Notes under the pieces: generated by a model
What the model saw: the letters and a program-made list of their open reading frames with translations, nothing else
Database searches by the model: none
What the model was told of the DNA's origin: nothing
NCBI GenBank assembly: GCA_019244055.1
Contig: JAFATG010000362.1
Location: 1-45,092, forward strand
Length of the DNA stretch: 45,092 nucleotides
Direction: 5' to 3'
Source: Acidobacteriaceae bacterium
Lineage (GTDB): Bacteria > Acidobacteriota > Terriglobia > Bryobacterales > Bryobacteraceae
Part shown: positions 3,375-35,231 of the stretch, piece after piece
How positions within the stretch are numbered: the first letter of the stretch is position 1
How the letters are laid out: every line of letters starts with the position of its first letter
Program-made: the position numbers and the translations under genes

Positions 3375-4289
3375 ATGCGTTATTCGCGGATTGCCATACT
3401 CGGGGCTCCACTGGATCTCGGAGCGGGACGGCGCGGTGTCGACATGGGGCCATCGGCGTTGCGTCTGGCGGGATTGAACGCAAAGCTCGAGTCGCTCGGT
3501 TACGAGGTCGAAGACCTGGGAAACGTGGCCGTAGCGCAGCAGGAAAGCACCGCTACCGGCCGTGAAAACGCAAAGTATCTTCCGCAGATTGCGAAAACGT
3601 GCACATCGGTTGCAGAGAAAGTGGAAAAGGCTCTCGGCGAGGCAGCATTTCCGTTGATATTGGGAGGCGATCACTCGGTTGCGGTGGGAACGGTATCGGG
3701 CGTTTCGCATGCTTTCCAGGAGCGCGGTGAAAGGATCGGCGTGATCTGGATTGACGCACATGCGGACATGAACACCCCGGAATCAAGTCCGAGCGGCAAC
3801 GTACATGGCATGCCCTTGGCCTGCTGCCTGGGCCGCGGCCCGCATGAACTGACGCATATCTACGATTACGCGCCGAAGGTGGAGGGGCGGAATGTCATTC
3901 TGATCGGCTTGCGCGATGTGGACAAGCGGGAGCGTGACGTGGTGCGTGAATCAGGAGTGACCGCATTTACAATGCGCGATATTGACGAACGCGGCTTACC
4001 CAACATTATGGAGGAAGCGATCTCACGCGCAACCGCGGGCACGGCCGGGTTTCATTTGTCACTCGACATGGACTCCGTCGATCCGGATGAAGCGCCCGGG
4101 GTTGGGACGCCGGTCCGTGGAGGAATGACCTACCGGGAAGCGCATTTGGCTATGGAGACGGTTTGTGATTCGAGCCGCATGATCTCGATGGAAGTCGTGG
4201 AAGTGAATCCCGTGCTGGATGACGCGAATCGAACCGCGCTGCTCGGTGTGGAGTTGGTCATGTCCGCTATGGGCAAGAAGATTTTGTAG
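3375..4289 (+). CDS. rocF: Arginase
   Basis: A 304-aa ureohydrolase-fold enzyme converting arginine to ornithine and urea. All Mn2+ ligands are visible: GGDHSVAVG (His100), DAHADMN (Asp127, His129, Asp131) and DMDSVDP (Asp231, Asp233). SPSGNVHGMP forms the substrate loop, which is typical of arginase rather than agmatinase. The length is normal for bacterial arginases. It lies 12 bp after asnS. Its stop is only 5 bp from the convergent GH65 stop, leaving no room for a separate terminator. A degraded, diverged copy of an arginase 3' end lies at 10028-10126. Confidence 0.95.
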   Translation: MRYSRIAILGAPLDLGAGRRGVDMGPSALRLAGLNAKLESLGYEVEDLGNVAVAQQESTATGRENAKYLPQIAKTCTSVAEKVEKALGEAAFPLILGGDHSVAVGTVSGVSHAFQERGERIGVIWIDAHADMNTPESSPSGNVHGMPLACCLGRGPHELTHIYDYAPKVEGRNVILIGLRDVDKRERDVVRESGVTAFTMRDIDERGLPNIMEEAISRATAGTAGFHLSLDMDSVDPDEAPGVGTPVRGGMTYREAHLAMETVCDSSRMISMEVVEVNPVLDDANRTALLGVELVMSAMGKKIL

Positions 4290-4294
4290 GGGCA

Positions 4295-6412
4295 TTAGTT
4301 TACGCCCGGGCGATGAGGATTATTGTCTTTCTTCTCCGGACGCGCGTTTGCCGCAAAGACCAGGGTCTTGCGCTTGTTTCGAATGGTGACGTTTTTCAGA
4401 ATGAGTTTCTGGACTCCGGGCGGCAGTACGGGATCGAACTTACGTTCCAATCCCTTATTACTGAGGCGCAGGCCCGTGTAGCCGAACACGAACTGCTGCA
4501 GGAAAGCGCCAGCTCCCGTGATGAAGTTTACGTTCTGATTGTCAGGCGTTTCCGCGATGACTTGGAAAGGCGGCCGGAGATACGGAGTGAAGAGCGGGTT
4601 CAGGAGTTGTCCAATGAGGGGCCGATCGCCGATTTGAGCAGCCAGAATGGGATAGAATTCAGTGCCCATCATGGCGCCCGTATCGTGTTGCTCGGCGTGT
4701 GGCAACATTGTCTGGATCGCAGCGCGGACCCTTTGTGGCGAGTAAGGGAGGTCGAGCGAATACCACAACATCGGGGAATCGCTTTCGGGAACATACATCT
4801 GCGCGGCGACTTCCCGCCACTTGGGGTGCACTTCGAAGTTGAGCTCACGAGCTGCTTCTATCGCAAACTCGATATTCTTTTTTGCCACTGCATTGGTGTA
4901 TGGATCGTTGCTTACGCCAATGTCCGACTCTTTTACCGCCACTAAGTTCGAAATCTCATATCTGTGACGTTCGGCGTTGTACTTCACCCGGCTCGTCCAA
5001 AAATCGGCGGTGTCACGGAGCAAGGGCCATGCATCCTGCTCGAGCCAATTTCGATCGCCAGTAGCCAGCCAGTATTGCCACGCGGCCACCGCAATATCGC
5101 CATTAACGTGATTTTCGGAGCTTGCGTTCTGGAACGCAAAGCGAGGAGTAGTTTCGGCTCCGTCGGGTCCGGCCTCCCAGGGAAACATCGCACCTTTGTA
5201 TCCGTTTCGTTGCGCATTTCGCCGCGCCGCTTCGCGTGTTCGAGAACGAAACGCCACCATGGGCCGGGCCAACTCGGGGTGCAAAATGACCAGCGGCGGA
5301 AACATGAACGTATCGGCATCCCAAAAAATGTGGCCATAGTAGCCGGCCGAACTCAGGCCCATGGGCGGCGTACTCAAATCAAGACGTTCGCGCATGCTTC
5401 CGAGCAAGTAGAAGAGCATTGAATGAATTGAGCGCTGCAGATCTGGATTTCCTTCGACGAGCAAGTCAGAATCCCATAATGCATGCCAGGCGGCCTCGCT
5501 CGCCCCTAGCAAGGCGTGCCAGCCAGCTTGCCGCGCGATGATGGCCGATTGCTTTGCAGCCTGAGTCGCACCGCTTGCGTCCGATATCACCAGGAAAGCG
5601 AATTTCGTGAAGGTATAGCTTTCGCCACGCTTCACATTCAGGTGCAATTGCGCTTCGGCCGATTCGGTGTCTTTGTGCAGTTCCACTTCCGCGGCGCCTG
5701 TCCAATCAATCGCGATTGCTTCCCCAAGTCTGTTTCGATAGCCGGGAGCGGTTGCGCCGAGCGACATCAACAGCCCCCGCGAAGTGCGTTCGACATCGAG
5801 TGCGGTGACATCGAGCCGGCCCGGATACCAGATCGCCCATTGATTCTTAGCGGCTTCGCCCTCGAGTTTTTGGATTTTTTCCAATTGATAGCGGCGCGGG
5901 GGAGGCCAATTGCGCAGCGGAAAGCGAATAGTTAATTCGCCAGCAAACTCGGGAGTCACGGTTACGCGTGTGGCCGCCAGTTGAGCGCGATCACGCGACA
6001 CGAATTCCTCGGCGTCAATCTGGATGTTTTTCCCGCGGTCGCTCCAGATGTAGGTGGTGTGAAGCAGCCCGTTATACATGTCGAGGGCTTGGCGATAGTG
6101 CTCGATTCCGGAGTGTGTCAGGTCAGCATTCAGCCATCGGAAGCCGTTATTGATATCCACTTCGTTCCACGCGGGAGCTGAAGCGATCCGGGGAACGTCG
6201 CCTGCTGAGTGGTCGTATGCTCCTGCTAGAAAAGATCGGGCGGGCTCTGTGCCGAGCGGCGCGGTGACCACGCTGATCGCTCCGTTTCCGAGGTATGCCG
6301 CCGTATAGGGCTGCGGATTGTCGGTCTGCAGGACAAAGGAAGGGTCGTCGGCCTGCGCAACATCGCGACAGGTTAAGCTCAGCCCGAGCGCAAAGATCCA
6401 ACGGGCGACCAT
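4295..6412 (-). CDS. Exported glycoside hydrolase family 65 protein (PGGHG/ATH1-like)
   Basis: About 705 aa from ATG 6412. The N-terminus (MVARWIFALGLSLTCRDVAQADD) resembles a signal peptide. The frame is open to 6508, but that extension overlaps the receptor gene and would bury the signal sequence. The catalytic (alpha/alpha)6 barrel contains WDADTFMFP (around residue 365) and PYTNAVAKKN, with the likely general acid Glu495 in KESDIGV. The pattern MFPWEAGPDG...ENHVNGDIAVAAWQY matches the protein-glucosyl-galactosyl-hydroxylysine glucosidase branch better than trehalose or kojibiose phosphorylases. It starts 10 bp after the TonB-receptor stop, so the two are probably co-transcribed and act on the same imported or surface glycan. 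The substrate is inference. Confidence 0.85.
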   Translation of the reverse strand: MVARWIFALGLSLTCRDVAQADDPSFVLQTDNPQPYTAAYLGNGAISVVTAPLGTEPARSFLAGAYDHSAGDVPRIASAPAWNEVDINNGFRWLNADLTHSGIEHYRQALDMYNGLLHTTYIWSDRGKNIQIDAEEFVSRDRAQLAATRVTVTPEFAGELTIRFPLRNWPPPRRYQLEKIQKLEGEAAKNQWAIWYPGRLDVTALDVERTSRGLLMSLGATAPGYRNRLGEAIAIDWTGAAEVELHKDTESAEAQLHLNVKRGESYTFTKFAFLVISDASGATQAAKQSAIIARQAGWHALLGASEAAWHALWDSDLLVEGNPDLQRSIHSMLFYLLGSMRERLDLSTPPMGLSSAGYYGHIFWDADTFMFPPLVILHPELARPMVAFRSRTREAARRNAQRNGYKGAMFPWEAGPDGAETTPRFAFQNASSENHVNGDIAVAAWQYWLATGDRNWLEQDAWPLLRDTADFWTSRVKYNAERHRYEISNLVAVKESDIGVSNDPYTNAVAKKNIEFAIEAARELNFEVHPKWREVAAQMYVPESDSPMLWYSLDLPYSPQRVRAAIQTMLPHAEQHDTGAMMGTEFYPILAAQIGDRPLIGQLLNPLFTPYLRPPFQVIAETPDNQNVNFITGAGAFLQQFVFGYTGLRLSNKGLERKFDPVLPPGVQKLILKNVTIRNKRKTLVFAANARPEKKDNNPHRPGVN

Positions 6413-6422
6413 CCGCACTGCG

Positions 6423-9400
6423 TCAGAACGTGATATGCGCTCCAAATTGCATGTTACGCATGCCGTTGCCGCAAGTGGAGCAGACCTGGATATCGGTAAT
6501 GAGCCCACCGGCAGGTGAATCGACCTGAGTGTTCGGCAACTCGAGATTCTGCCGGTTGATTACATTGAAAACATCCCAGCGAATCTCCAAGCCCACCCGT
6601 TCTGTCAGTTTGAAACCTTTGGCGAGCTGCCAGTCAAGTTCGAAGAAGTTAGGGCCGCGCAACGAGTTCCGTCCCGCATCGCCAAACGTATAGAGCGGCG
6701 GTATACCGTACGCGGCAGGATTGAACCAAAGATTCGCGCTTTGATTTGGAACGGATGGATCTCCGATCAGCTCCGGCCGGCTGGTCATGTCGGGCGAGTT
6801 CAGGAAGGACTGATTCCCTATGCTTGGCGAAAATGGCAAGCCGGAGTAGTAGGACGTTATGCCACGAAACGACCAGTTTCCTACCACTCCATTCACAAAA
6901 GCGGAACCGCCCGATAGATACTTCCGGCCGTGCCCAAACGGGAGCTCAACGGTGTGGGCAAGCGTGAACGCGAATTCGCGATCAAAATCAGCGGGACCAT
7001 AGTCCTGTTGGGCGTTGTACTGGTTAGTCGGGGTGCCAAATTCGCCAAAGTCGAGAGCCTTTTGCCAACTGAAATTTGCGAGCAGCGAGTAGGCCGCGCT
7101 GAAGCGCTTGTTGGCTTGAATTTGAAGCGCATTGTAATTACTGCTGGTGCAGTCGCATTTATCGAAGATGCCCTGTGACAGACCATACTTGATAAACAGC
7201 GGACGGCGGAGATTTGCATCGGAACCGGGGCCGGGAACAGCAGCGTTAAGGCCAAAGCCGCCGTTCAGGTGGCGTCCGATGTTGCCCACGTACCCTACCG
7301 AGAGGTTTAGTTGTGGCGCTATCTGGCGCTCGACGGTAAAGTTCCACATTTCCACATAAGGGATCTTCTGGTTCGCGGGGATATAAGAGACACCGATGCC
7401 GTTCGCAAGCGGTAGTCGTCCATTTGGCGGGATGACTGGGAAAACCACCAGTGCCGGTGCGGTCGTTAGCGGAAACACCGGAAAGAAGGATGACGTTGCC
7501 GTAATGCTCTGGTTGACAATTGACGGGTAAACATCAGCCGCAAGATCATTGAAGGTCCAGCCAAATGTGCCGAGAGTGTAGCCGCGTCCGTAGCCGGTCC
7601 GAATGACCGTTTTCTCATTGATGGCGTAAGCGATACCGATGCGCGGCGAAAAATTGTGCCATTGCGTCTCGGCGTTGCCGGAGCGAGAGACGCCGCCCAC
7701 ACCCGGGATATAGACAATGTTGTTCGTCACATCGTACCGGCCCCCCTGGCCCGCATTGAGAGAGAAATCGGGGAACCACACATCCCACCGCACTCCTAAG
7801 CTAAGCGTCAACTTCGAGGTAGCCCGCCAGGTGTCCTGGACAAAATAAAACATTCTGTTTTGGCGATCTTCTTGGTTTGTCGAGATCTGAGCGAATCTGT
7901 TGAAGCTGGATGGATCTCCCAGCATGAATGAGGCAAGCCCCAAACCACTGCTGGGAATGCTGGCGTCCGCTGTTACGGAGGGGTTGAACTGATACACGCC
8001 TGCGCGGTGTTGGTCACTGGGGAGACGCAGGTTCCAGGCCAGTTCGGCTGTGCCGCCGAAACGAAATGTGTGATTGCCCGAGACTTTGGTCCAGTTATTT
8101 ACAAAGTCGAGAAGCGTCTCGCGCTCATGTAGGGGACAGTTGCAGCTATATCCCATCGAGAACCCGCCTGCACCGTTGAGGGTCAGATCGGGAAGCCCAT
8201 TCGTGTCCGGCTTTCCCGGCAGATTCAAGCCCGGAATGCCGACTGTGTTTGCCAGTTGCGTGGTCTGATCCTGGGCGGCCACGGTCACTCGGTAACGCGA
8301 AAAGCCAAAGCGGACTTCGGTCAACAGGTTCGGGTTAAAAACGTACGTGCCGCCCGAGGCGACGTTCTGATTGAGCGCGTTCGAAAGGCCTGAAAAGCCC
8401 CATTGAGGAAATGCAGGCCCACCATATAGGCCAAACGGGCCTGGTGCAGTAATGTCGGCCCCGAGATAACTGTACCGTCCGAAAAAGCGCAGTTTCTCGG
8501 TCGTGAAATAATCGCCTCGCACGTCGAACTGATTTGTGTTGTAATTCTCGACAGCCGACGTTGCGTAGTTTGGCGCCGCAGGATCCGTGGTTGCAAGGTT
8601 CGGAAGCGGAAGTGCCGCCAGAAGGTTGACGACCGGCGGCGAAATGCGTCCGGCGATGTTAGCGCCAGGAAAAATAGTTCGACCAGTTCCATCTGGATTG
8701 CCGGTGGCTGGGTCATAAATCGGAACGCCTAAATCGCTCAGATCCCCGGATCGTTCTGCGGCGGTGGGAACGCGAACCGATTGAGATGCGCCGATCCTTC
8801 GTTGAGTTCCCTGATAGTCACCGAAAAAGAAAAGCTTGTCCTTCTTGATCGGGCCGCCAATCGAGCCCCCAAACTGATTCCAACGCAGCGCGGGGATTCC
8901 CCGGTGAGGTGGCGGGGGTTGGCCGGGAGTTACCAACCCCTGTGTAAACGGATCACGAGCCTGAAAAATATTGTTTTGCAGGAATTCGAAGGCACTGCCG
9001 TGGAACTCGTTGGTTCCCGACTTTGTTTGTACCTGAATGACATTGCCCGTTGCCTGATACTCGGCATCGTAATTATTACTCTGAGCCGTAAATGAGCCGA
9101 CGGAATCTACGGCTGGATTTACCATGGTGATGCCAAGCACGGTATCATTGTTGTTCATACCGTCCAACTGATAGTTGGTCCCGGCGAATTCCTGTCCGCC
9201 CGTGTTCACCAGCGTGGACTGTTGCGGGTTCTCGCTGGGCGCGTGTTGAAACGTGTTCACGACAGAACCTGGAGTGAGCAGAGCCAGATTCGTGAAATTG
9301 CGATTTGATATGGGAAGTGAGGAGATCTGAGCTGAGCTGAGCTGCGTTTCCACGACTGCGCGGTCCGTTTCAATGCCCGGAGGCGCCGAACTGACCGTTA

Positions 9401-9761
9401 CTTCCTGGGTTGCCTGCCCGACCTGGAGCGAGGCGTCGACGCGAACGGACCGCGAAACATTTACAGCCACATTCTGCTGAACGAATTTCTGAAAACCGGT
9501 CTTCGTAATCGTAATTGTGTAGCTGCCCGCGGGCAGATTTGGCGCGGTATAGTTTCCCGATTCGTTGGTTATAACTTGAGTGGAAGCGTTAGTTGCAACG
9601 TTGGCGATTGTGATTTCAGCTCCACCTATAGCAGCACCGCTGGGATCGGTGACCGTGCCAATGATATTTCCTGAAACTGCTTGCCCGATTGAGATGTTAG
9701 GAAAGGCAGCGAGACAAAGCAAAGCAAGCGCATTTGCGCAGTGAAGTACGCGATACTGCAT
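6423..9761 (-). CDS. Oar-type TonB-dependent outer-membrane receptor
   Basis: A 1112-aa outer-membrane protein. A signal peptide (about residues 1-27) is followed by a carboxypeptidase-regulatory-like beta-sandwich (about 30-115, with GTVTDPSGAAIGGAEI and GNYTAPNLPAGSYTI), then a plug with a NNNDTVLG segment and GTNEFHGSAFEFLQN, and a long 22-strand-type barrel ending in the aromatic strand FGAHITF. Large receptors of this Oar build are abundant in acidobacteria and take up oligosaccharides or other bulky ligands. No SusD-like partner is visible. The gene lies immediately upstream of the GH65 gene on the same strand. The start ATG at 9761 has an AGGGG ribosome-binding site a few bases upstream. 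Confidence 0.92.
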   Translation of the reverse strand: MQYRVLHCANALALLCLAAFPNISIGQAVSGNIIGTVTDPSGAAIGGAEITIANVATNASTQVITNESGNYTAPNLPAGSYTITITKTGFQKFVQQNVAVNVSRSVRVDASLQVGQATQEVTVSSAPPGIETDRAVVETQLSSAQISSLPISNRNFTNLALLTPGSVVNTFQHAPSENPQQSTLVNTGGQEFAGTNYQLDGMNNNDTVLGITMVNPAVDSVGSFTAQSNNYDAEYQATGNVIQVQTKSGTNEFHGSAFEFLQNNIFQARDPFTQGLVTPGQPPPPHRGIPALRWNQFGGSIGGPIKKDKLFFFGDYQGTQRRIGASQSVRVPTAAERSGDLSDLGVPIYDPATGNPDGTGRTIFPGANIAGRISPPVVNLLAALPLPNLATTDPAAPNYATSAVENYNTNQFDVRGDYFTTEKLRFFGRYSYLGADITAPGPFGLYGGPAFPQWGFSGLSNALNQNVASGGTYVFNPNLLTEVRFGFSRYRVTVAAQDQTTQLANTVGIPGLNLPGKPDTNGLPDLTLNGAGGFSMGYSCNCPLHERETLLDFVNNWTKVSGNHTFRFGGTAELAWNLRLPSDQHRAGVYQFNPSVTADASIPSSGLGLASFMLGDPSSFNRFAQISTNQEDRQNRMFYFVQDTWRATSKLTLSLGVRWDVWFPDFSLNAGQGGRYDVTNNIVYIPGVGGVSRSGNAETQWHNFSPRIGIAYAINEKTVIRTGYGRGYTLGTFGWTFNDLAADVYPSIVNQSITATSSFFPVFPLTTAPALVVFPVIPPNGRLPLANGIGVSYIPANQKIPYVEMWNFTVERQIAPQLNLSVGYVGNIGRHLNGGFGLNAAVPGPGSDANLRRPLFIKYGLSQGIFDKCDCTSSNYNALQIQANKRFSAAYSLLANFSWQKALDFGEFGTPTNQYNAQQDYGPADFDREFAFTLAHTVELPFGHGRKYLSGGSAFVNGVVGNWSFRGITSYYSGLPFSPSIGNQSFLNSPDMTSRPELIGDPSVPNQSANLWFNPAAYGIPPLYTFGDAGRNSLRGPNFFELDWQLAKGFKLTERVGLEIRWDVFNVINRQNLELPNTQVDSPAGGLITDIQVCSTCGNGMRNMQFGAHITF

Positions 9762-9780
9762 GGTAGCCCCTGATGGCTCG

Positions 9781-9809
9781 ATTTTGCATCACGAGCTTTA
9801 AACAATCAA
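9781..9809 (-). promoter_or_regulatory. Possible sigma-70 promoter of the TonB-receptor gene
   Basis: On the minus strand, TTGATT (9804-9809) and CAAAAT (9781-9786) are separated by 17 bp, each matching the consensus at four of six positions. The predicted transcript would start near 9774, giving a very short leader that still includes the AGGGG ribosome-binding site. The spacing is good and the elements are weak. Confidence 0.3.
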
Positions 9810-9915
9810 GACGCTTTGCGGGTCTAACGGCCCAGGGAAATTACGAAGCTGCGGAAAGATTCAAGCGCGAAGGTGACGTCTAACGAGATATTTACTTCTA
9901 GCCTATTACCCTCGC

Positions 9916-10012
9916 CATCACGGAAACGCCTCGCGAATTTTCACGGTCCGGTCGAGATCATCGAGTTCCTGAAGCACCTTTAGCCGAAGATCCTTGTCGA
10001 GCTGTGCGGAAT
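9916..10012. repeat. 97-bp direct repeat, left copy (aminopeptidase 3'-end fragment)
   Basis: These bases are identical to 12900-12996, in the same orientation with an offset of 2984 bp. The right copy is the last ~31 codons plus the stop codon of the M1 aminopeptidase gene, so the left copy is an orphan gene tail with no reading frame of its own. Similarity trails on for seven matching bases at 10019-10025 after a cluster of mismatches. A shared ACCCTC precedes both copies (9908-9913 and 12891-12896) with a 1-bp indel. The two copies bracket the accessory island. Confidence 0.93.
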
Positions 10013-10027
10013 TCGGCGATTGGTGTG

Positions 10028-10126
10028 ATGGAGAGAATCCGCGATTCCGGCCGTATGATCTCTATGAATTGTGGAAGTGAATCCCGTGCTGGATGAAGCG
10101 GATCGAGCCCCGCTGCTCGGCTTGGT
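10028..10126 (+). pseudogene. Frameshifted remnant of an arginase 3' end
   Basis: The stretch resembles the end of rocF. Bases 10043-10120 align with 4167-4246 at roughly 85-90% by hand, including 26 identical bases (10071-10096 against 4197-4222). Differences fall largely at codon third positions, and the implied peptide blocks are RMISM and VEVNPVLDEADRAPLLG. A 2-bp deletion near 10066-10070 breaks the frame. It is therefore a relic of a diverged second arginase gene, not a fresh copy of the local rocF. It sits directly inside the left direct repeat. Confidence 0.8.
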
Positions 10127-10236
10127 TCGTCCCCTGCCCCTCGAATGATCGGGACGGCCGTCTGCATCTGCCAGCGAGGCGAAAGGCTCATCTATCTATA
10201 CTGTCATTCAGTGATGATCTTCACTCTGGAAGAGAA

Positions 10237-10884
10237 ATGATGAAGCTCGACGACATACTGCCGAAGCTGAGTCCTGCTGAGAAGGCTTGGCTTACGATCG
10301 GGCCTCAGAAATACGGTTGGACTATCAATGATCTCTGTCAAAAACTACTTGAGAAAACTGGGCAGGACGTTGATCCGCTGAGCGTCGAGGAATACCTTCG
10401 CCGGAAGGGTCTGCCGGTTCTATCGGCTATGAATGCTTCAGACCCCTATGCATCGCCTTCCGGAACAGTCAGTCAATTCTCGGGTGCGATGGAGCGCGAC
10501 ATAGAGCTGGCCCTTGTATCTCAGCTTGACTCATTCGGACTGCGACTCTTCGTGGATTCGAACGAGCGCAACGGGCGGCAATATCCCGCGGGCGAGTTCG
10601 GCCGTATCGATTTGCTTACGACTGATTCGAATGGGGACTTCGTGGTCATTGAGCTCAAACGCGATGACGTACCACGCGCTGTAATTGGTCAAATCGCGGG
10701 TTACATTGCCTTCGTTAAGAATCACTTAGCCGAGGCGAGGAATCACTCGGTATCTGGCTGGATTCTCGCGCGACCGTCCTCCCCAGCAGATGACCGCGTT
10801 CTTGAGGAGGCCGCGAACGCCGTCGGCATTCTGGTTAAGTGGTATTGGATCAGGGTTGAACTGCTTGAGAATCGGATTTCATGA
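10237..10884 (+). CDS. PD-(D/E)XK nuclease, DUF91/NucS C-terminal-like
   Basis: A 215-aa protein. The C-terminal part (about residues 82-210) carries a restriction-endonuclease-like core: Glu90 in ERDIELAL, then GRQYPAGEFGRIDLL with Asp125, then VVIELKR with Glu139 and Lys141, and Gln152 in IGQIAGYIAF. This order matches the nuclease domain of NucS/DUF91 proteins. The NucS N-terminal DNA-binding domain is absent. Instead there are about 75 residues with a possible small helical domain. I chose ATG 10237, preceded by GGAAGAG, because the longer frame from 10093 reads through the arginase remnant. It is convergent with the 548-aa TPR-HEPN gene, 84 bp apart, inside the repeat-bracketed island. 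Cleavage of DNA is inferred from motifs; the biological target is unknown. Confidence 0.8.
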   Translation: MMKLDDILPKLSPAEKAWLTIGPQKYGWTINDLCQKLLEKTGQDVDPLSVEEYLRRKGLPVLSAMNASDPYASPSGTVSQFSGAMERDIELALVSQLDSFGLRLFVDSNERNGRQYPAGEFGRIDLLTTDSNGDFVVIELKRDDVPRAVIGQIAGYIAFVKNHLAEARNHSVSGWILARPSSPADDRVLEEAANAVGILVKWYWIRVELLENRIS

Positions 10885-10968
10885 TTTCCCTACGCACATA
10901 CTCGGCCTCATCGCCGGCCCAGGTGCTTCATTCGAAAGCAGGAGTGAGATTAACCAGACGGAATCGTC

Positions 10969-12615
10969 TTACAAATCCCCGCTCTTGCTCTCTGAGAGAT
11001 CGCGCCCGTGACTAGACGGGTTGCGAAGCCTGACGAGCCGACGCCCACGCTCACTGTCCCACTCGTTGATGAGCCGACTGGCATTGTCTGTTAGCCAGCA
11101 CTTTAATTCGGGATGTCGTGGATCGGGCGAGTCTCTGCAGTCGTTAATCTCCCAAATCATTGTTCCAAGTTCGATGTTTCCACCTCCAAGATATTTGAGC
11201 AGTGGATCGTCCTGCTTGTGTTGAGCCGATGCACTGTTCAAAACTATCCGACGCTTTTCCCGACGGAAACGGTCGAATAGCCTGAGAAGCTCGCGCTCAG
11301 CGATGGCTGAAAAGTGTCCTGCCGCTCTCGAGCGGTTCTCGTCATACAGTTCATTACCGGACCAGATCATGTGAGCGGCACCGACCCATTCCTTCCTGCT
11401 TCGCTCATCCAGATACTTGAACTCCGGAAAATGTTGCATGACCACGCGATCTAAAACGCGCGAAACAACCGGGTGTGAATCGGCGTACTCACGCAACGGC
11501 TTCCCAAGGTCAGTTCCAGCGACTTCAGCAAAAGAAAGCGCGAAGGAGACAATCGGATCCTCACCAAAGCTGCGATCGACCTCTTCTTCCTTTCGTAGGC
11601 ACTCGACTGCCCGTTGGAGGTCGGGAGGCATGGATAGCCGGTACAGGTCGGCGAGTTTTCTCCACAGGCCCTTTGTATTTGGGAATTCCTCAGTGCATTC
11701 CTGCAGAAGACGTATTGCCGTTTCGGTGTCGCCGGACTCTGCATAAGAATCGGCAGCACGTTGAAAAGCGCTCAGCCGGAAGGGGTTGCGTTCTGCCGTT
11801 TTAGAGGCATCAAGAAAAACATCGTACTCGTGCGCGGCTCTCCCAAAATCTTGGGAGAGAAAATAACACTTTCCCAAGGCGGCGCGGTACCAAATAGGCA
11901 CAGCTGACAAGCTCCTAAACGCCTGTGCCCATTCGAGGGTGGCATCGGATATCCTATCCAATTCCGCCTTCGAGTACTCCTGCTTAGCGGATGGCTTCAT
12001 GGCCCAGTCCAACAGCACCGCTAAACGAGTGCTCACCTCGGCGTCTAAATGCGGTGCCCACCACACTAGGCGCGAGTCTGGCTTAATGTCAAGGTGGAAA
12101 CCGATAACGCTCCAGAGATACATTTGGCCAAGGAGCGCGAGATGTTCTTCGGGGGAGATGCTTCCCAGATACTTCAGACGATGATAGAGGTTGGCGGCAG
12201 TACCCCAGTCCTTAATAGCGCAGAAATTAACGATCTCCCACCGTATTGTCTTCGGGTCGTCGATTGTAGAAACATCGCGAAGCAGAACCGCACTCGCCAG
12301 ACGCTCGGCTAACCATTGGCGTGTGATACCAAGGTCAAATTGCTTATCAATATCTGGCTGAGTCGCCAGTAGAAATAGAAGATTCAGAACCGTAAAGCGA
12401 ACTGGAAACGCGCCGCCTGCCGCGATGATGCGCTCATAGAAGAAGTCCATCATCGCCTCTTCGGAACTCCCGTACAGCGCCACCCAAACCTCCACCATCA
12501 GTTCCGAGCGCTCGACTGTAACATCATCAATCGTCGGATAATCCGCGGTCGCTTCGGCTCTTTTCGCTATTTGCTGGACCTCGTTGTTAAATTCAGTTTC
12601 CAGACGTTCGAGCAT
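10969..12615 (-). CDS. TPR-like protein with C-terminal HEPN-type motif
   Basis: A 548-aa cytoplasmic protein without signal peptide or membrane segments. The middle (about residues 130-400) is helical and repeat-like, with TPR-style units such as YRAALGKCYFLSQDFGRAAHEYD, here seen around 11840-11900, and the following AFQRAADSYAESGDTETAIRLL. The last ~120 residues look like a HEPN domain: a helix with AIAERELLRLFDRFR, then LGTMIWEI, and finally LVRLRNPSSHG with Arg531 and His536. RNxxxH is the active-site signature of HEPN ribonucleases. No strong ribosome-binding site precedes the ATG at 12615. Codons look less GC-rich than in flanking genes (47-52% in two 60-base lines counted by hand). 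I do not recognise a named family; a toxin or sensor-effector role is inference. Confidence 0.72.
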   Translation of the reverse strand: MLERLETEFNNEVQQIAKRAEATADYPTIDDVTVERSELMVEVWVALYGSSEEAMMDFFYERIIAAGGAFPVRFTVLNLLFLLATQPDIDKQFDLGITRQWLAERLASAVLLRDVSTIDDPKTIRWEIVNFCAIKDWGTAANLYHRLKYLGSISPEEHLALLGQMYLWSVIGFHLDIKPDSRLVWWAPHLDAEVSTRLAVLLDWAMKPSAKQEYSKAELDRISDATLEWAQAFRSLSAVPIWYRAALGKCYFLSQDFGRAAHEYDVFLDASKTAERNPFRLSAFQRAADSYAESGDTETAIRLLQECTEEFPNTKGLWRKLADLYRLSMPPDLQRAVECLRKEEEVDRSFGEDPIVSFALSFAEVAGTDLGKPLREYADSHPVVSRVLDRVVMQHFPEFKYLDERSRKEWVGAAHMIWSGNELYDENRSRAAGHFSAIAERELLRLFDRFRREKRRIVLNSASAQHKQDDPLLKYLGGGNIELGTMIWEINDCRDSPDPRHPELKCWLTDNASRLINEWDSERGRRLVRLRNPSSHGRDLSESKSGDL

Positions 12616-12899
12616 CGCTAAATTTTACCAGCGCTAATCTCGATGATCTCGGCCCAATTTCCTCGTAAGGAAGGCACTCGTATGCGAAAAGGTTTCGTCT
12701 GCTCTCTGATGCCGACGGCGCGCGACCGCGGACTCGCATGGGCGTATGATGTGTAATCTGTCGGATATGAGATTCCGCCGGCATGAAACGGCCGGCAACG
12801 GGCATGTATCTACGAATGGCTCCCGCATTTTCGGCCACTCGGGGCCTGAGGCCTGGCGGAGGCAAAAATTAAAGCGAGTGTGAGGCCCGGACCCTCTAA
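12616..12899. other. Non-coding right part of the accessory island
   Basis: This 284-bp stretch upstream of the 548-aa gene holds only short, implausible frames. A TAAAAT lies 7-12 bases before the ATG but no convincing -35 accompanies it. GCCGGC occurs twice around 12778-12795, and GGCCTGAGGCCTGG lies near 12843-12856. No transposase or integrase remnant could be recognised. Confidence 0.4.
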
Positions 12900-12901
12900 C
12901 A

Positions 12902-15028
<2,127 letters not shown>

Positions 15029-15508
15029 CGTACGAACAGAGTGTAGACATACGTGCTGCCGTCATCCTTGTCGTCGTAGCGAGTAATAGCTGTGTTCGCG
15101 GACGCCACGGGCGTGGTGAAATCGATGAAAACAGCGTTTTCGCCCTGGCGAAGATCGAGCGGGTCCAGTTCGATATGACCGTTTTCCGGCTTTACCCGCT
15201 CGACTTTGCCGTTGACGATCAGGTCGCCAGTAACGTCTCCTCTGAAATCGAGCAGAAGCCGAACGTCGTGCGACAAACGGAAGCGAAGTTCTTCGTGCCC
15301 TTCAGTGCTGGTTGCACGCTGATTCAGTGTGAATTGCAGCTTATAACGAACGTCAGAGACGTATTGCGCGCGTTCGACCGCCAACTCCCTAGGAACGCCG
15401 GGTGGGGCACTCGCCGAGAGCGCAGGGCCAGTAAGCAAAAGCAGAAAGAGAAGGTGATTCACGAGCGGTGATTATTAGACAATTAGAGCAAAGCACTGGA
15501 ACTTACTC

Positions 15509-16789
15509 ATGAACGAACAGCAGCGCATGGCCAGACCTCTGTCAGAGGCGGATCCCGAGATCTACGATGCAATTCAACACGAGCTCGATCGGCAGAACAC
15601 CCGGCTTGAACTGATTGCAAGCGAGAATTTCACCTCCGAAGCGGTGCTGGAAGCCGCTGGTAGCGTTTTCACGAACAAATATGCAGAGGGGTATCCAGGG
15701 AAGCGATATTACGGGGGCTGCGAGTTCGTAGACATTGTCGAGAACCTAGCGCGGGAACGCGCCAAGAAGTTGTTCAATGCCGAATATGCAAACGTCCAGC
15801 CGCACTCGGGATCTCAAGCAAACGAAGCTGCTTACGCCTCGGTACTGCAGCCCGGCGATACGCTCCTCGGTATGAATCTGGCGCATGGCGGACACTTAAC
15901 GCACGGTCACCCGCTCAATTTCTCCGGAAAACTGTACAAGGTTGTTGCCTACGGCGTCCGGCGCGACGACGAACTGATCGACTACGACGAATTAGCGAAG
16001 CTCGCCGAAGAACACAAACCGAAGCTCATCATCGCGGGTGCTAGCGCTTATTCGCGAGTAATCGACTTTGCGCGGTTCCGGCAAATAGCGGACGCGGTTG
16101 GAGCCGTGTTTCTGGTCGATATTGCGCATTATTCAGGGCTCGTGGCAGCGGGCATTTATCCGAACCCCTGCGAACACGCCGACATCGTCACTTCCACTAC
16201 GCACAAGACGCTACGCGGGCCCAGATCAGGCATGATTCTGGCGAAAGAGAAGTTCGGAGCGGCTATCGACAAGGCTTTGTTTCCGGGCGCGCAGGGCGGC
16301 CCACTAGTGCACAAGATTGCGGCAAAAGCGGTGTGCTTTCTCGAGGCCGCATCAGAGAGCTTCCACGAATATCAACGGCAAGTGTTGGCGAACGCACGCG
16401 CCCTGGTGAAATCTCTGCAACACGAGGGGTATCGAGTCGTCAGCGGGGGAACCGATTCGCACATGTGCCTCGTCGACGTGTTCGCCAAAGGAGTAAAGGG
16501 TAGAGAGGCGGAAAAGGCCCTCGATGATGCGTACATAACGGCAAATAAGAACGCCATTCCCTTCGATACGAATCCTCCGCTGAACCCAAGTGGAATCCGC
16601 CTTGGCAGTCCGGCGGTCACGACGCGCGGTTTTCGTGCGGATGAGATGCAGGAAGTGGGCCGGCTGATTGCGCTGGTCCTCAACGATGTTAAATCGGAGC
16701 AAGTCAGAGCGGAGGCGCGAAAGAGAGTCCGTGCGCTCACCGAGAGATATCCGCTCTATGCATGGAAGACTCAAGCTGCCACGGTTTAG
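15509..16789 (+). CDS. glyA: Serine hydroxymethyltransferase
   Basis: A 426-aa PLP enzyme of the cytoplasm interconverting serine and glycine with transfer of the hydroxymethyl group to tetrahydrofolate, the main source of one-carbon units. Typical blocks are present: [15 protein letters not shown]-like near the N-terminus, [28 protein letters not shown], the PLP-lysine motif [13 protein letters not shown], and [17 protein letters not shown] near the C-terminus. The length is normal. It is transcribed away from the aminopeptidase and ends 8 bp from the convergent aldo/keto reductase. Confidence 0.96.
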
Positions 16790-16797
16790 CTTGAAGG

Positions 16798-17775
16798 TCA
16801 GGAGTGGCCTAGAATGCGATGTGGGCGGTAACACTGTTCGAGCTTCTTGATCTCATCCGCCGAAAGCTTCATTGATACCGCCGCGAGCGCCTCTTCCAAA
16901 TGGTGCGGCTTGCTTGCGCCGATGATCGGTGCGGTAATTCCCGGCTTGGAAAGAATCCAGGCAAGCGCGATTTGCATATTCGATAAGCCTCGTGCCCGCG
17001 CAACTTCGGCGAGGCGGTCTGCGACTGCAAAATCGTCGTCCTGATAATACATCTGCTTCGCGTACTCGTCGGTTTTTGCCCGGGACGTTTCTCCACCGTT
17101 CCGGTTGCGATTTCCGGCCAAAAAGCCACGCGCCAACGGGGACCACGGGATGAGCCCAACACCGCGCTCGCGACAGAGAGGAATCATCTCGCGTTCCTCT
17201 TCGCGATAGATCAGGTTGTAATGGTTCTGCATGGAAACGAAACGCGTCCAGCCTCGCAGCTCGGATACATAGAGCGATCTTGAGAATTGCCAGGCGAACA
17301 TGGAGGACGCACCGATATAGCGCGCCTTCCCTGCCTTAACGACGTCGTGAAGCGCTTCCATTGTCTCTTCGATGGGCGCTGAGTAATCCCAGCGATGAAT
17401 CTGATACAAGTCGACATAGTCGGTGCCGAGGCGTCGCAGACTGTGGTCGATTTCGGTCAGGATCGCCTTGCGGGATAGACCGCGGCCATTCGGATCGGGC
17501 CGCATCGGGTTGAACACCTTAGTCGCAATCACAACCTGATCGCGGTTGGCGAAGTCGCGAAGCGCACGCCCGAGGACTTCCTCGCTAACGCCGTCGGAAT
17601 ACATATTGGCGGTGTCGAAGAAGTTGATGCCCGCTTCTATGGCGCGCTTAATAAACGGACGGCTCTGGTCTTCATTAAGGACCCAGTCACGCCACTTGTC
17701 CGTGCCATAGGTCATGCAGCCCAGGCAAAGACGGGAGACTTTTAGCCCCGTGTTACCGAGATTTGTGAATTCCAT
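16798..17775 (-). CDS. Aldo/keto reductase
   Basis: A 325-aa NADPH-dependent TIM-barrel oxidoreductase. The catalytic tetrad is visible in order: Asp in INFFDTANMYSDG, Tyr in the same segment, Lys in VVIATKVF and His in LYQIHRWD. The C-terminal cofactor-binding part contains ITAPIIGASKPHHLEEAL. The sequence resembles the YajO/GSP69-type AKR branch; the substrate is not predictable. It begins 25 bp after the leuD stop on the same strand, so it may be carried on the leu transcript without a role in leucine synthesis. Confidence 0.9.
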   Translation of the reverse strand: MEFTNLGNTGLKVSRLCLGCMTYGTDKWRDWVLNEDQSRPFIKRAIEAGINFFDTANMYSDGVSEEVLGRALRDFANRDQVVIATKVFNPMRPDPNGRGLSRKAILTEIDHSLRRLGTDYVDLYQIHRWDYSAPIEETMEALHDVVKAGKARYIGASSMFAWQFSRSLYVSELRGWTRFVSMQNHYNLIYREEEREMIPLCRERGVGLIPWSPLARGFLAGNRNRNGGETSRAKTDEYAKQMYYQDDDFAVADRLAEVARARGLSNMQIALAWILSKPGITAPIIGASKPHHLEEALAAVSMKLSADEIKKLEQCYRPHRILGHS

Positions 17776-32849: not shown

Positions 32850-35231
32850 TTAGGGCGCGAAGTACCCGGAGAGGTCCAGGATCAGTTGTGTCGTGCCGTT
32901 TGCGAAGGAATCGATCGAGCCGTTGGTGGTCGGTACAAGCGCCATGTTCGCGGTTGTCGCACCATCGAGTGCATTCAGGGTCGATACGAGAGGCTGTGTG
33001 ACCCCATCCGGCCATAGCGCCAAATAACCCAAGGTCCCGTTGGGTACTACCGTGGCATTCAGCACCAACGCTTGCGCCCCTGCGGTGAGAGCACCGCAAC
33101 TGCTGCCCGCCACATCGACTGTGAGCGGACCGCCGGTGAGGGCGCCCGAACTCGTACGCGTATCGAGCACGCGGCAGGGCGGCACCGTGCGCAACGAGAG
33201 GCCGCCGCTACCTGGCGGAGCGAAATACCCGTTCACGTCGATGACCAGATCCGTATCGCCGGTAGCGTACACGGAGATATCGCCGCTGGAACCGGCTGGC
33301 ACAATGGCGGCATTTGCGGTTATGCCGCCGTTCAGTGCGTTCAGGGTTGAGACGTAAGGTTGGCCTTGCCGTGTAGGCCATACGGTGATAAAGCCAAGCG
33401 GGCCGTGCGGGACTGCTGTGAAATTCAGCGAGTAGGCTTGCGCACTGGAGGGAATGTTGCACTCGCTCGATATAACCGGGAATACCCGAGGAAGGCCGCC
33501 GGTCAGATATGGACCGCTCAGTGCCCCTTGCGGCAGCCGCGTGTCCGCAACACGGCAGGGCGTTACCGGATAAAACTGCAGAGTCGACGTGCCTGCAGGC
33601 ACGAAATAGCCGTTAATATCCAGTACCAAATGAGTTGAGTTCGTCACGAACACATTTACACTCCCATTCGTTCCGGCTGGAACGATGGCGGCGTCCGCCT
33701 TGATGCGTCCGTCCGAGTTGAGCGTTGAGACTAAGGGTTGGCTCTGTCCAGTGGGCCAGATGGTCAGGTATCCAAGTTGCGCATCAGGCACAACGGTCAC
33801 GTTCAGCGCGTATGCGGCGGCATTGGCGGGAATTTTGTTTTCGCAAGGCGAAACCGCCAGATTAGAAGCCGGAAGGTTAAATGTCCGCGTAGTGTTGGCT
33901 ACCAGTTCCGGTCCGCCGAAGGGGCCGTCTGCGAGGCGCGTATCAACGAGACGGCAAGGCTTAATGGGGACAAACTGCATCGGCTGCCCGGCCGTTGCTT
34001 GCACAAAGGGCCAGACGGCACCGGTGTAGCTGTTATCGTCTGGGCCGCCGATTAGAGCGGTGGTCCCGCCTCCCGACAAGGCGACGGCAGTCCCCTGCTC
34101 GGCGTTGCCAACCGCTCCCATACCGAGAAGCTTGTTTCCCTGCTGGGTCCAAACGCCGCTGGAACGCGTAAAGGCCCAGGCCGCGCCAGCAGCGCTCGCA
34201 TCAAAAGGACCTCCCTCGAGAGCCGTGTTCCCATCGGCGGACAGCGCCACTGAAAACCCTTGCTCGCTTTGGCCCACCGCTTCCGTACCGACCAGCTTGT
34301 TTCCCTGCTGGCTCCAGTGACCGTTGCCATCACGCGCGAAGACCCACATGGCACCCACGTTCGTGTTGTCGTTGGGGCCACCTACCACTGCGGTGTTCCC
34401 GTCAGCAGAAAGCGCCACAGCCCGACCTTGTTGAGGCGCACCCACAGCACCAGTGCCTGCCAGCTTGCTTCCTTGTTGAGTCCAGTTCCCGTTGACATCG
34501 CGAGTGAAGACCCACGAAGCACCTGACGAACTGTTGTCCAGAGGACCTCCGACAAACGCCGTATTGCCATCGGAAGAGAGCGTGACTGAAAAGCCCTGCT
34601 CGGTTTGGCCGACACCACCGGTGCCCACCAACTTGCTTCCTTGTTGGGTCCAATTACCGTTGGCATCCCGAGTGAAGACCCACACCGCACCAGCTCCGTT
34701 GGCATCGCCGGGGCCACCTACCAGAGCGGTGTTGCCATCAGACGATAGCGCGACCGACTGGCCCTGCTGCGATGGGCTCGTGGCTCCGGAGCCGATCAGC
34801 TTGTTTCCTTGTTGAGTCCAATTTCCGCTGCCGTCCCGCGTGAAGACCCATACGGCACCCGCGGCACCGTGATCGGCCGGGCCACCTACCAGAGCGGTAT
34901 TGCCATCGGACGACAGCGCGACAGACTGGCCTTGTTGCGACGGAGTGATGGCGCCGGAACCGATTAACTTACTTCCTTGCTGAGTCCAGGTTCCGCTGCT
35001 GTCTCGCGTGAAAACCGCAGCCGCACCAGTGTAGCTGTTATCGCCGTAAAGACCGATCAGAGCGGTGTTACCGTCGGACGATAGTGCGACCGCGCCACCT
35101 TGAAAAGTTTTTCCATTTGGACCGGCATCTACCAGCTTGATCCCTTGCTGGGTGAAGACCTGCGCCGAGGCGACCGTACAAAAAGCCAACGCTGAGCACA
35201 AAAATACCGCTTGGAATCGCGAGAAATACAC
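32850..35231 (-). CDS. Secreted FG-GAP-like seven-repeat propeller protein with three DTR/NGYF modules
   Basis: 793 aa with signal peptide (residues 1-23, ending AQV). Residues ~24-415 are seven ~56-residue repeats of the form WTQQGxKLxGxGA...QGxSVALSSDGNTALVGGPxDN..GAVWVF, best read as a seven-bladed propeller. Residues ~420-793 are three ~125-residue modules, each running from FxPxxPCRxxDTR through LNxTxVP...GYLTxWP and VSTLN to LVxDxNGYFxP. Such modules recur in secreted proteins of Solibacter-like acidobacteria. The role is unknown: surface adhesion or ligand binding is inference. The start is GTG 35231 with GGAGG six bases upstream. Confidence 0.82.
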   Translation of the reverse strand: MYFSRFQAVFLCSALAFCTVASAQVFTQQGIKLVDAGPNGKTFQGGAVALSSDGNTALIGLYGDNSYTGAAAVFTRDSSGTWTQQGSKLIGSGAITPSQQGQSVALSSDGNTALVGGPADHGAAGAVWVFTRDGSGNWTQQGNKLIGSGATSPSQQGQSVALSSDGNTALVGGPGDANGAGAVWVFTRDANGNWTQQGSKLVGTGGVGQTEQGFSVTLSSDGNTAFVGGPLDNSSSGASWVFTRDVNGNWTQQGSKLAGTGAVGAPQQGRAVALSADGNTAVVGGPNDNTNVGAMWVFARDGNGHWSQQGNKLVGTEAVGQSEQGFSVALSADGNTALEGGPFDASAAGAAWAFTRSSGVWTQQGNKLLGMGAVGNAEQGTAVALSGGGTTALIGGPDDNSYTGAVWPFVQATAGQPMQFVPIKPCRLVDTRLADGPFGGPELVANTTRTFNLPASNLAVSPCENKIPANAAAYALNVTVVPDAQLGYLTIWPTGQSQPLVSTLNSDGRIKADAAIVPAGTNGSVNVFVTNSTHLVLDINGYFVPAGTSTLQFYPVTPCRVADTRLPQGALSGPYLTGGLPRVFPVISSECNIPSSAQAYSLNFTAVPHGPLGFITVWPTRQGQPYVSTLNALNGGITANAAIVPAGSSGDISVYATGDTDLVIDVNGYFAPPGSGGLSLRTVPPCRVLDTRTSSGALTGGPLTVDVAGSSCGALTAGAQALVLNATVVPNGTLGYLALWPDGVTQPLVSTLNALDGATTANMALVPTTNGSIDSFANGTTQLILDLSGYFAP

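Follow-up and report, generated by a model that had tools for sequence, protein, structure and literature searches.

The window analysed here is a whole contig of 45,092 bp from a draft genome (6.2 Mb in 372 contigs), and the locus of interest is a 2887-bp insert lying between two directly repeated copies of the end of pepN (Table 1). The insert carries two convergent ORFs, both found where the earlier note had placed them, one encoding an apparent solo nuclease, whose frame is open from 10093, and the other a TPR protein with a HEPN-like C-terminal domain. The remaining ORFs listed between the repeats overlap the two genes or the flank, and none is longer than 109 aa. A 36-aa ORF to the left of the left pepN copy (9773-9880) was considered as a third gene fragment and dropped, its best non-self match being at E 0.058.

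Table 1. Features of the insert and its surroundings, with positions in the window.
Feature	Position	Strand	Remarks
Left repeat copy, the detached last ~95 bp of pepN	9916..10012	-	100% identical to right copy
Insert between the two 97-bp repeat copies, carrying both genes	10013..12899		2887 bp; exact repeat boundaries
Decayed arginase fragment, near arginase 3' end	10013..10131	+	~85% identical to intact arginase, with indels
Solo PD-(D/E)XK nuclease, NucS_C/YhcG_C-like, with a different N-terminal region	10237..10884	+	215 aa
Stretch after the TAA, matching the end of the HEPN family	10930..10968	-	profile matches; shuffle test
TPR protein with C-terminal HEPN-like domain (RNPSSH)	10969..12615	-	548 aa; stop inside family homology
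Right repeat copy, the 3' end of the resident pepN including its stop codon	12900..12996	-	
Resident pepN (M1 aminopeptidase), the insertion target	12902..15462	-	split into two ORFs

The direct repeats, which had been described as enclosing the gene pair, are indeed exact over 97 bp; what they represent is a duplicated pepN end, with nothing recognizable as the termini of an element. The pepN stop codon lies at 12902-12904, 2 bp inside the right copy, and the left copy was independently recovered as a pepN fragment in a protein search. The lower GC content attributed to the pair is real and mild: 0.539 for the insert vs. 0.568 for the window, with 4.5% of equal-sized windows being as low, and GC3 is slightly low too. 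The junctions share short words with the flanks (GGAA on the left and, close to the repeat, ACCCTC on the right), suggestive of a recombination trace, though words of this length could point only weakly to any particular route.

The insert opens with about 120 bp of arginase-related sequence; over 80 bp its identity to the intact arginase gene (Pfam) at 3375-4289, 5.9 kb to the left of the insert, is 85%. The left edge of this fragment is uncertain, as its alignment enters the repeat, to 10008. The fragment also matches places in G308, G307, G306 and G302 (E < 1e-3), and the right-hand stretch of the insert, 12616-12899, has no convincing relative in the 17 genus genomes (best E 0.034); the searches with both ends were run at E up to 10, with matches kept only at E < 1e-3. 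Besides the pepN and arginase pairs, the only same-strand repeat of at least 20 bp in the window is an exact one at 34711 and 34879, 168 bp apart. A 16-nt stretch upstream of the start of the HEPN gene (12639-12654) is an inverted 94% match to a piece of the 97-bp repeat, which may be chance. A mobile element with its own recombinase, either an integrase island or a transposon, was considered and rejected: neither gene matches a recombinase by profile, none was recognized between the repeats, and no terminal inverted repeats of at least 15 nt were found at the insert ends. No second copy of the insert was found in its own genome.

The gene into which the fragment appears to have gone is itself split here, into ORFs at 14983-15462 and 12902-15028; in the relative G297 it forms one frame of ~853 aa, pointing to a frameshift or a sequence error in the window. 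Four genus relatives have, in the stretches retrieved, an orthologous pepN without such an insert; as the genes downstream of pepN differ in them, none shows the exact empty site. Since the genome is a 372-contig draft, the pepN frameshift, the repeat junctions and the stop in the TPR-HEPN gene discussed below could all contain assembly errors.

The PD-(D/E)XK core proposed for the 215-aa protein holds up. Its presumed active-site residues, D125, E139, K141 and Q152, are located as predicted, and the D...(D/E)xK(...Q) pattern that they form lies inside the domain recognized by several profiles: Pfam YhcG_C (E 7.9e-6, 26.2 bits vs. a cut-off of 32.5, residues 84-180) and NucS_C (E 1.1e-4, 22.6 bits vs. 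24, residues 120-174), both below their curated cut-offs, and the PADLOC models PDC-S02 (E 8e-14) and PDC-S11 (E 3e-11), both over the nuclease domain. The N-terminal part shows a weak Pfam match to HTH_33 (E 0.0077, below cut-off). Orthology to NucS/EndoMS was considered and rejected, the match reaching 33 bits vs. an NCBIfam equivalog cut-off of 216 and being limited to residues 120-178. The protein is probably a metal-dependent DNase with an N-terminal targeting region of its own.

Related nucleases were found in 24 of 297 phylum genomes at E up to 0.001, the window's own genome included, with the best of the others at E 5.3e-9 (36 bits), and in 5 of the 17 genus genomes at E up to 0.01, again including its own. 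The only near full-length orthologue among these 17 is that of G302, which is 54% identical over residues 4-213 (E 3.4e-56) and keeps D125, K141 and Q152, with Asp replacing Glu139. From translations read by eye, its neighbours appear to be a glycosyltransferase to one side; to the other lie what look like a methyltransferase and a protein resembling formamidopyrimidine-DNA glycosylase. Matches were also seen in 26 plasmid records, all at less than 60% identity, and in no viral contigs.

The second protein had been described as a helical-repeat protein ending in a HEPN motif. Its TPR repeats are clear (Pfam TPR_14, E 1.5e-6, above cut-off) and the RNPSSH motif is in place; the C-terminal domain can be called HEPN-like only, by way of this motif and of weak matches of one relative, L179. 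As defined in PMC3710099, the HEPN motif is Rx4-6H with a polar residue after the R, with an additional acidic residue typically found in an Ex3[KR] arrangement. The window's RNPSSH has both the spacing and the polar residue; among eight aligned family members the His is kept in 8/8 and the Arg in 7/8, and the upstream Glu440 (E55 of the aligned domain) is also kept in 8/8, though in the window protein it is not part of an Ex3[KR]. HEPN-named Pfam models match neither the window protein at E up to 1 nor six family members at E up to 0.1. The sole HEPN-model support for the family comes from the C-terminal part of L179, whose matches to HEPN_Swt1 (E 0.0034) and DUF4145 (E 0.02), both below cut-off, span the motif and the last helix. 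Structure models are all-helical and poor, with pLDDT 44.7 for the HEPN protein alone and 50.4 for the C-terminal domain modelled with one relative. In the PDB, the C-terminal-domain profile matches no HEPN chain (three matches, at E 0.2 or worse), and the matches of the full protein are confined to the TPR part. By its sequence, the C-terminal domain appears HEPN-like and belongs to a rare family of Acidobacteriota proteins marked by an Rx4H motif; the whole protein is probably a TPR-triggered HEPN ribonuclease of an abortive-infection or BREX-accessory type.

The view that these are accessory rather than core genes holds. A profile search of the 237 genomes of the taxonomic family recovered the TPR-HEPN family in 6, the window's own included, five of the copies being full length and one partial; the other 110 of the 116 matching genomes were excluded, being TPR-only among the matches listed. 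The partial copy, that of G329 (L073), covers profile positions 213-568 and aligns only in the C-terminal part. Matches of the full protein or profile that cover the TPR part alone, including 8 outside the window, were not counted; in one search the four non-own matches at E < 1e-7 were kept and the rest of the 66 genomes (E up to 1) dropped, and L075 (G472, E 0.005) was also left out of the set. The C-terminal-domain profile matches 3 of 396 phylum genomes, again with its own among them. The closest relative is L142 (G547, same taxonomic family), at 37% identity overall. No homologues were found in plasmids or viral contigs, and the C-terminal domain has no match in phages. In the genome_contigs collection the first scan gave no TPR-HEPN homologue, and a two-row alignment gave one locus, L144, on a contig of the same length as that of L142.

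At the end of this gene an in-frame stop falls just after the RNPSSH motif, leaving the window copy to end before the family's last helix. Profile matches to the gene cross this one TAA and reach 10930, the window protein without its post-stop tail having itself been a row of both profiles that cross it. All seven relatives in the alignment extend beyond the window stop, and the post-stop residues resemble the last helix of L142: aligned by eye, the two score 27, a value reached by 81 of 100,000 shuffles. Since the relatives and the homology both extend past the stop, the window protein lacks what comes after the active-site motif in its family. The early stop may be a sign of decay, a short form that occurs naturally, or an error in the sequence.

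The earlier note's central claim was that the two genes make up an undescribed two-gene defence module, and this claim does not survive comparison with other genomes. The TPR-HEPN family is absent from all 28 nuclease loci outside the window, which are all those found (the phylum search gave 23, the genus search 4 and G329 1) and at each of which the nuclease frame was found again; the nuclease is likewise absent from all 7 TPR-HEPN loci outside the window. Some of these neighbourhoods are shortened by contig ends, as at L160 (5.3 kb), L168 (4.2 kb) and L180 (5.4 kb). The near full-length orthologue of G302, in the same genus, has no TPR-HEPN neighbour. When five TPR-HEPN-bearing genomes were searched whole, a nuclease match (E up to 0.01) was present in none of four and was weak and on another contig in the fifth. 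With 0/28 and 0/7 co-occurrence and a partnerless G302 orthologue, the pair does not recur as neighbours at any searched locus outside the window, and the module was rejected.

Proximity to known defence genes, another point on which the module had been expected to show itself, was seen for one of the seven TPR-HEPN relatives. In G360 (L074 236-10604; L143 12367-16739) the TPR-HEPN gene lies upstream of, and is co-oriented with, a complete BREX operon in the order brxA-brxB-brxC-pglX-pglZ-brxL, with an IS transposase gene on its other side. No other relative is known to adjoin a defence gene: at G373 (L071) four neighbours, including HupE/UreJ-like and FGE-sulfatase-domain proteins, were profile-scanned and none is a defence protein, and the neighbours of the five others were read by eye only. 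Near the relative in G595 (L179 2709-2969) there is an ORF that we take to be a DUF433-type antitoxin, and next to that of G329 (L073 8861-10303) an 82-aa ORF that is presumably a small HEPN protein. Neither the window TPR-HEPN protein nor any of four relatives (L071, L072, L074 and L179) is covered by a PADLOC model. The complete BREX operon downstream of one relative makes a defence role plausible for the TPR-HEPN gene by itself, and for either gene, taken separately, defence may reasonably be guessed.

It seems likely, then, that the locus records one recent insertion of 2887 bp into the 3' end of pepN, bringing in two independent accessory genes that form no conserved functional pair. The fragment would have entered the chromosomal gene at its 3' end by non-site-specific recombination, assisted by microhomology or homology, with a duplication of the last 97 bp that would have left the 3' end of pepN intact. 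DNA cleavage is predicted for the nuclease and RNA cleavage for the TPR-HEPN protein, each acting alone, and the TPR-HEPN gene, whose product is now without its last helix owing to the in-frame stop, may be decaying. That the pair is nevertheless a rare but genuine two-gene defence module, with a DNase and a HEPN RNase, known so far from this genome only, is unlikely. The genes lie side by side on the same insert, both fold classes are common in defence (the DefensePredictor paper, PMC13092281, gives PD-(D/E)XK domains in 13 and HEPN domains in 4 of 31 additional validated systems), and such a pair might be limited to unsampled lineages, some of the neighbourhoods being cut by contig ends; against this stand the lack of co-occurrence in either set of neighbourhoods and in the TPR-HEPN genomes searched whole, as well as the convergent orientation of the genes and the stop before the family's last helix in one of them.

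A non-autonomous mobile cassette that targets the 3' ends of genes and regenerates them, moved by a recombinase in trans and carrying the arginase fragment as the scar of an earlier target, would account both for a repeat that runs 2 bp beyond the stop codon of pepN, restoring the gene end, and for arginase sequence beside the left repeat copy. It is distinctly unlikely, in that the loci of four TPR-HEPN relatives are without long near-exact repeats, having only 32-70 nt pairs at 70-78%, and the G302 nuclease locus has only 26-36 nt pairs at 64-78% and one 25-nt inverted pair at 80%, to which may be added the lack of a recognized recombinase inside the insert and of a second copy in the genome. 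We regard as very unlikely indeed the more far-reaching proposal of a non-autonomous defence cassette that enters gene 3' ends with a duplication of ~97 bp, bears the arginase scar and shuffles solo nuclease and TPR-HEPN genes among the Bryobacterales. There is also a small chance of an assembly artefact, in which a separate, e.g. circular, molecule with a 97-bp stretch in common with pepN was joined into the contig at that stretch. The genome is a many-contig draft, and assembler k-mers can be as long as the repeat; on the other hand, the insert borders on the repeat at each end, so that a repeat-insert-repeat unit must presumably exist in some form.

With a single insertion of two unrelated genes as the preferred reading, the candidate two-gene defence system can be struck off the list, and the locus illustrates how one insertion event can make unrelated genes resemble a module. 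Two better-defined leads are left. The first is the rare family of TPR-HEPN proteins, with one member encoded upstream of the complete BREX operon of G360; the second is the small solo PD-(D/E)XK nuclease, which has been kept in sibling species.

The resemblance to BREX is one of association, through the co-oriented TPR-HEPN relative upstream of the G360 operon, whereas no BREX protein was found among the nine Pfam-scanned proteins of the window, from 3375 to 17775. Solo PD-(D/E)XK nucleases and TPR-HEPN fusions are both already known kinds of protein. The nuclease shares the PD-(D/E)XK core of NucS/EndoMS (NucS_C, PF01939) over its residues 120-174, and NucS/EndoMS chains are its only PDB sequence matches at E up to 1, though weak ones (E 0.14 and 0.56); it differs in having no NucS N-terminal domain, the likeness stopping at the segment noted above. 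With the YhcG_C-type nucleases (PF06250; PADLOC candidates PDC-S02 and PDC-S11) it has the nuclease domain in common, but its best match to PDC-S02 covers profile positions 154-287 of 308 and leaves the N-terminal half of that model unmatched. The TPR-HEPN fusions LA2681 and C6orf70/DUF4209 resemble the window protein in joining TPRs to a HEPN domain with an Rx4-6H motif (PMC3710099, Table 1), and may differ from it, as six members of the window family match no HEPN-named Pfam model at E up to 0.1 and one further member, L179, matches HEPN_Swt1 and DUF4145 weakly. The C6orf70 family is described in PMC3710099 as occurring in R-M related operons.
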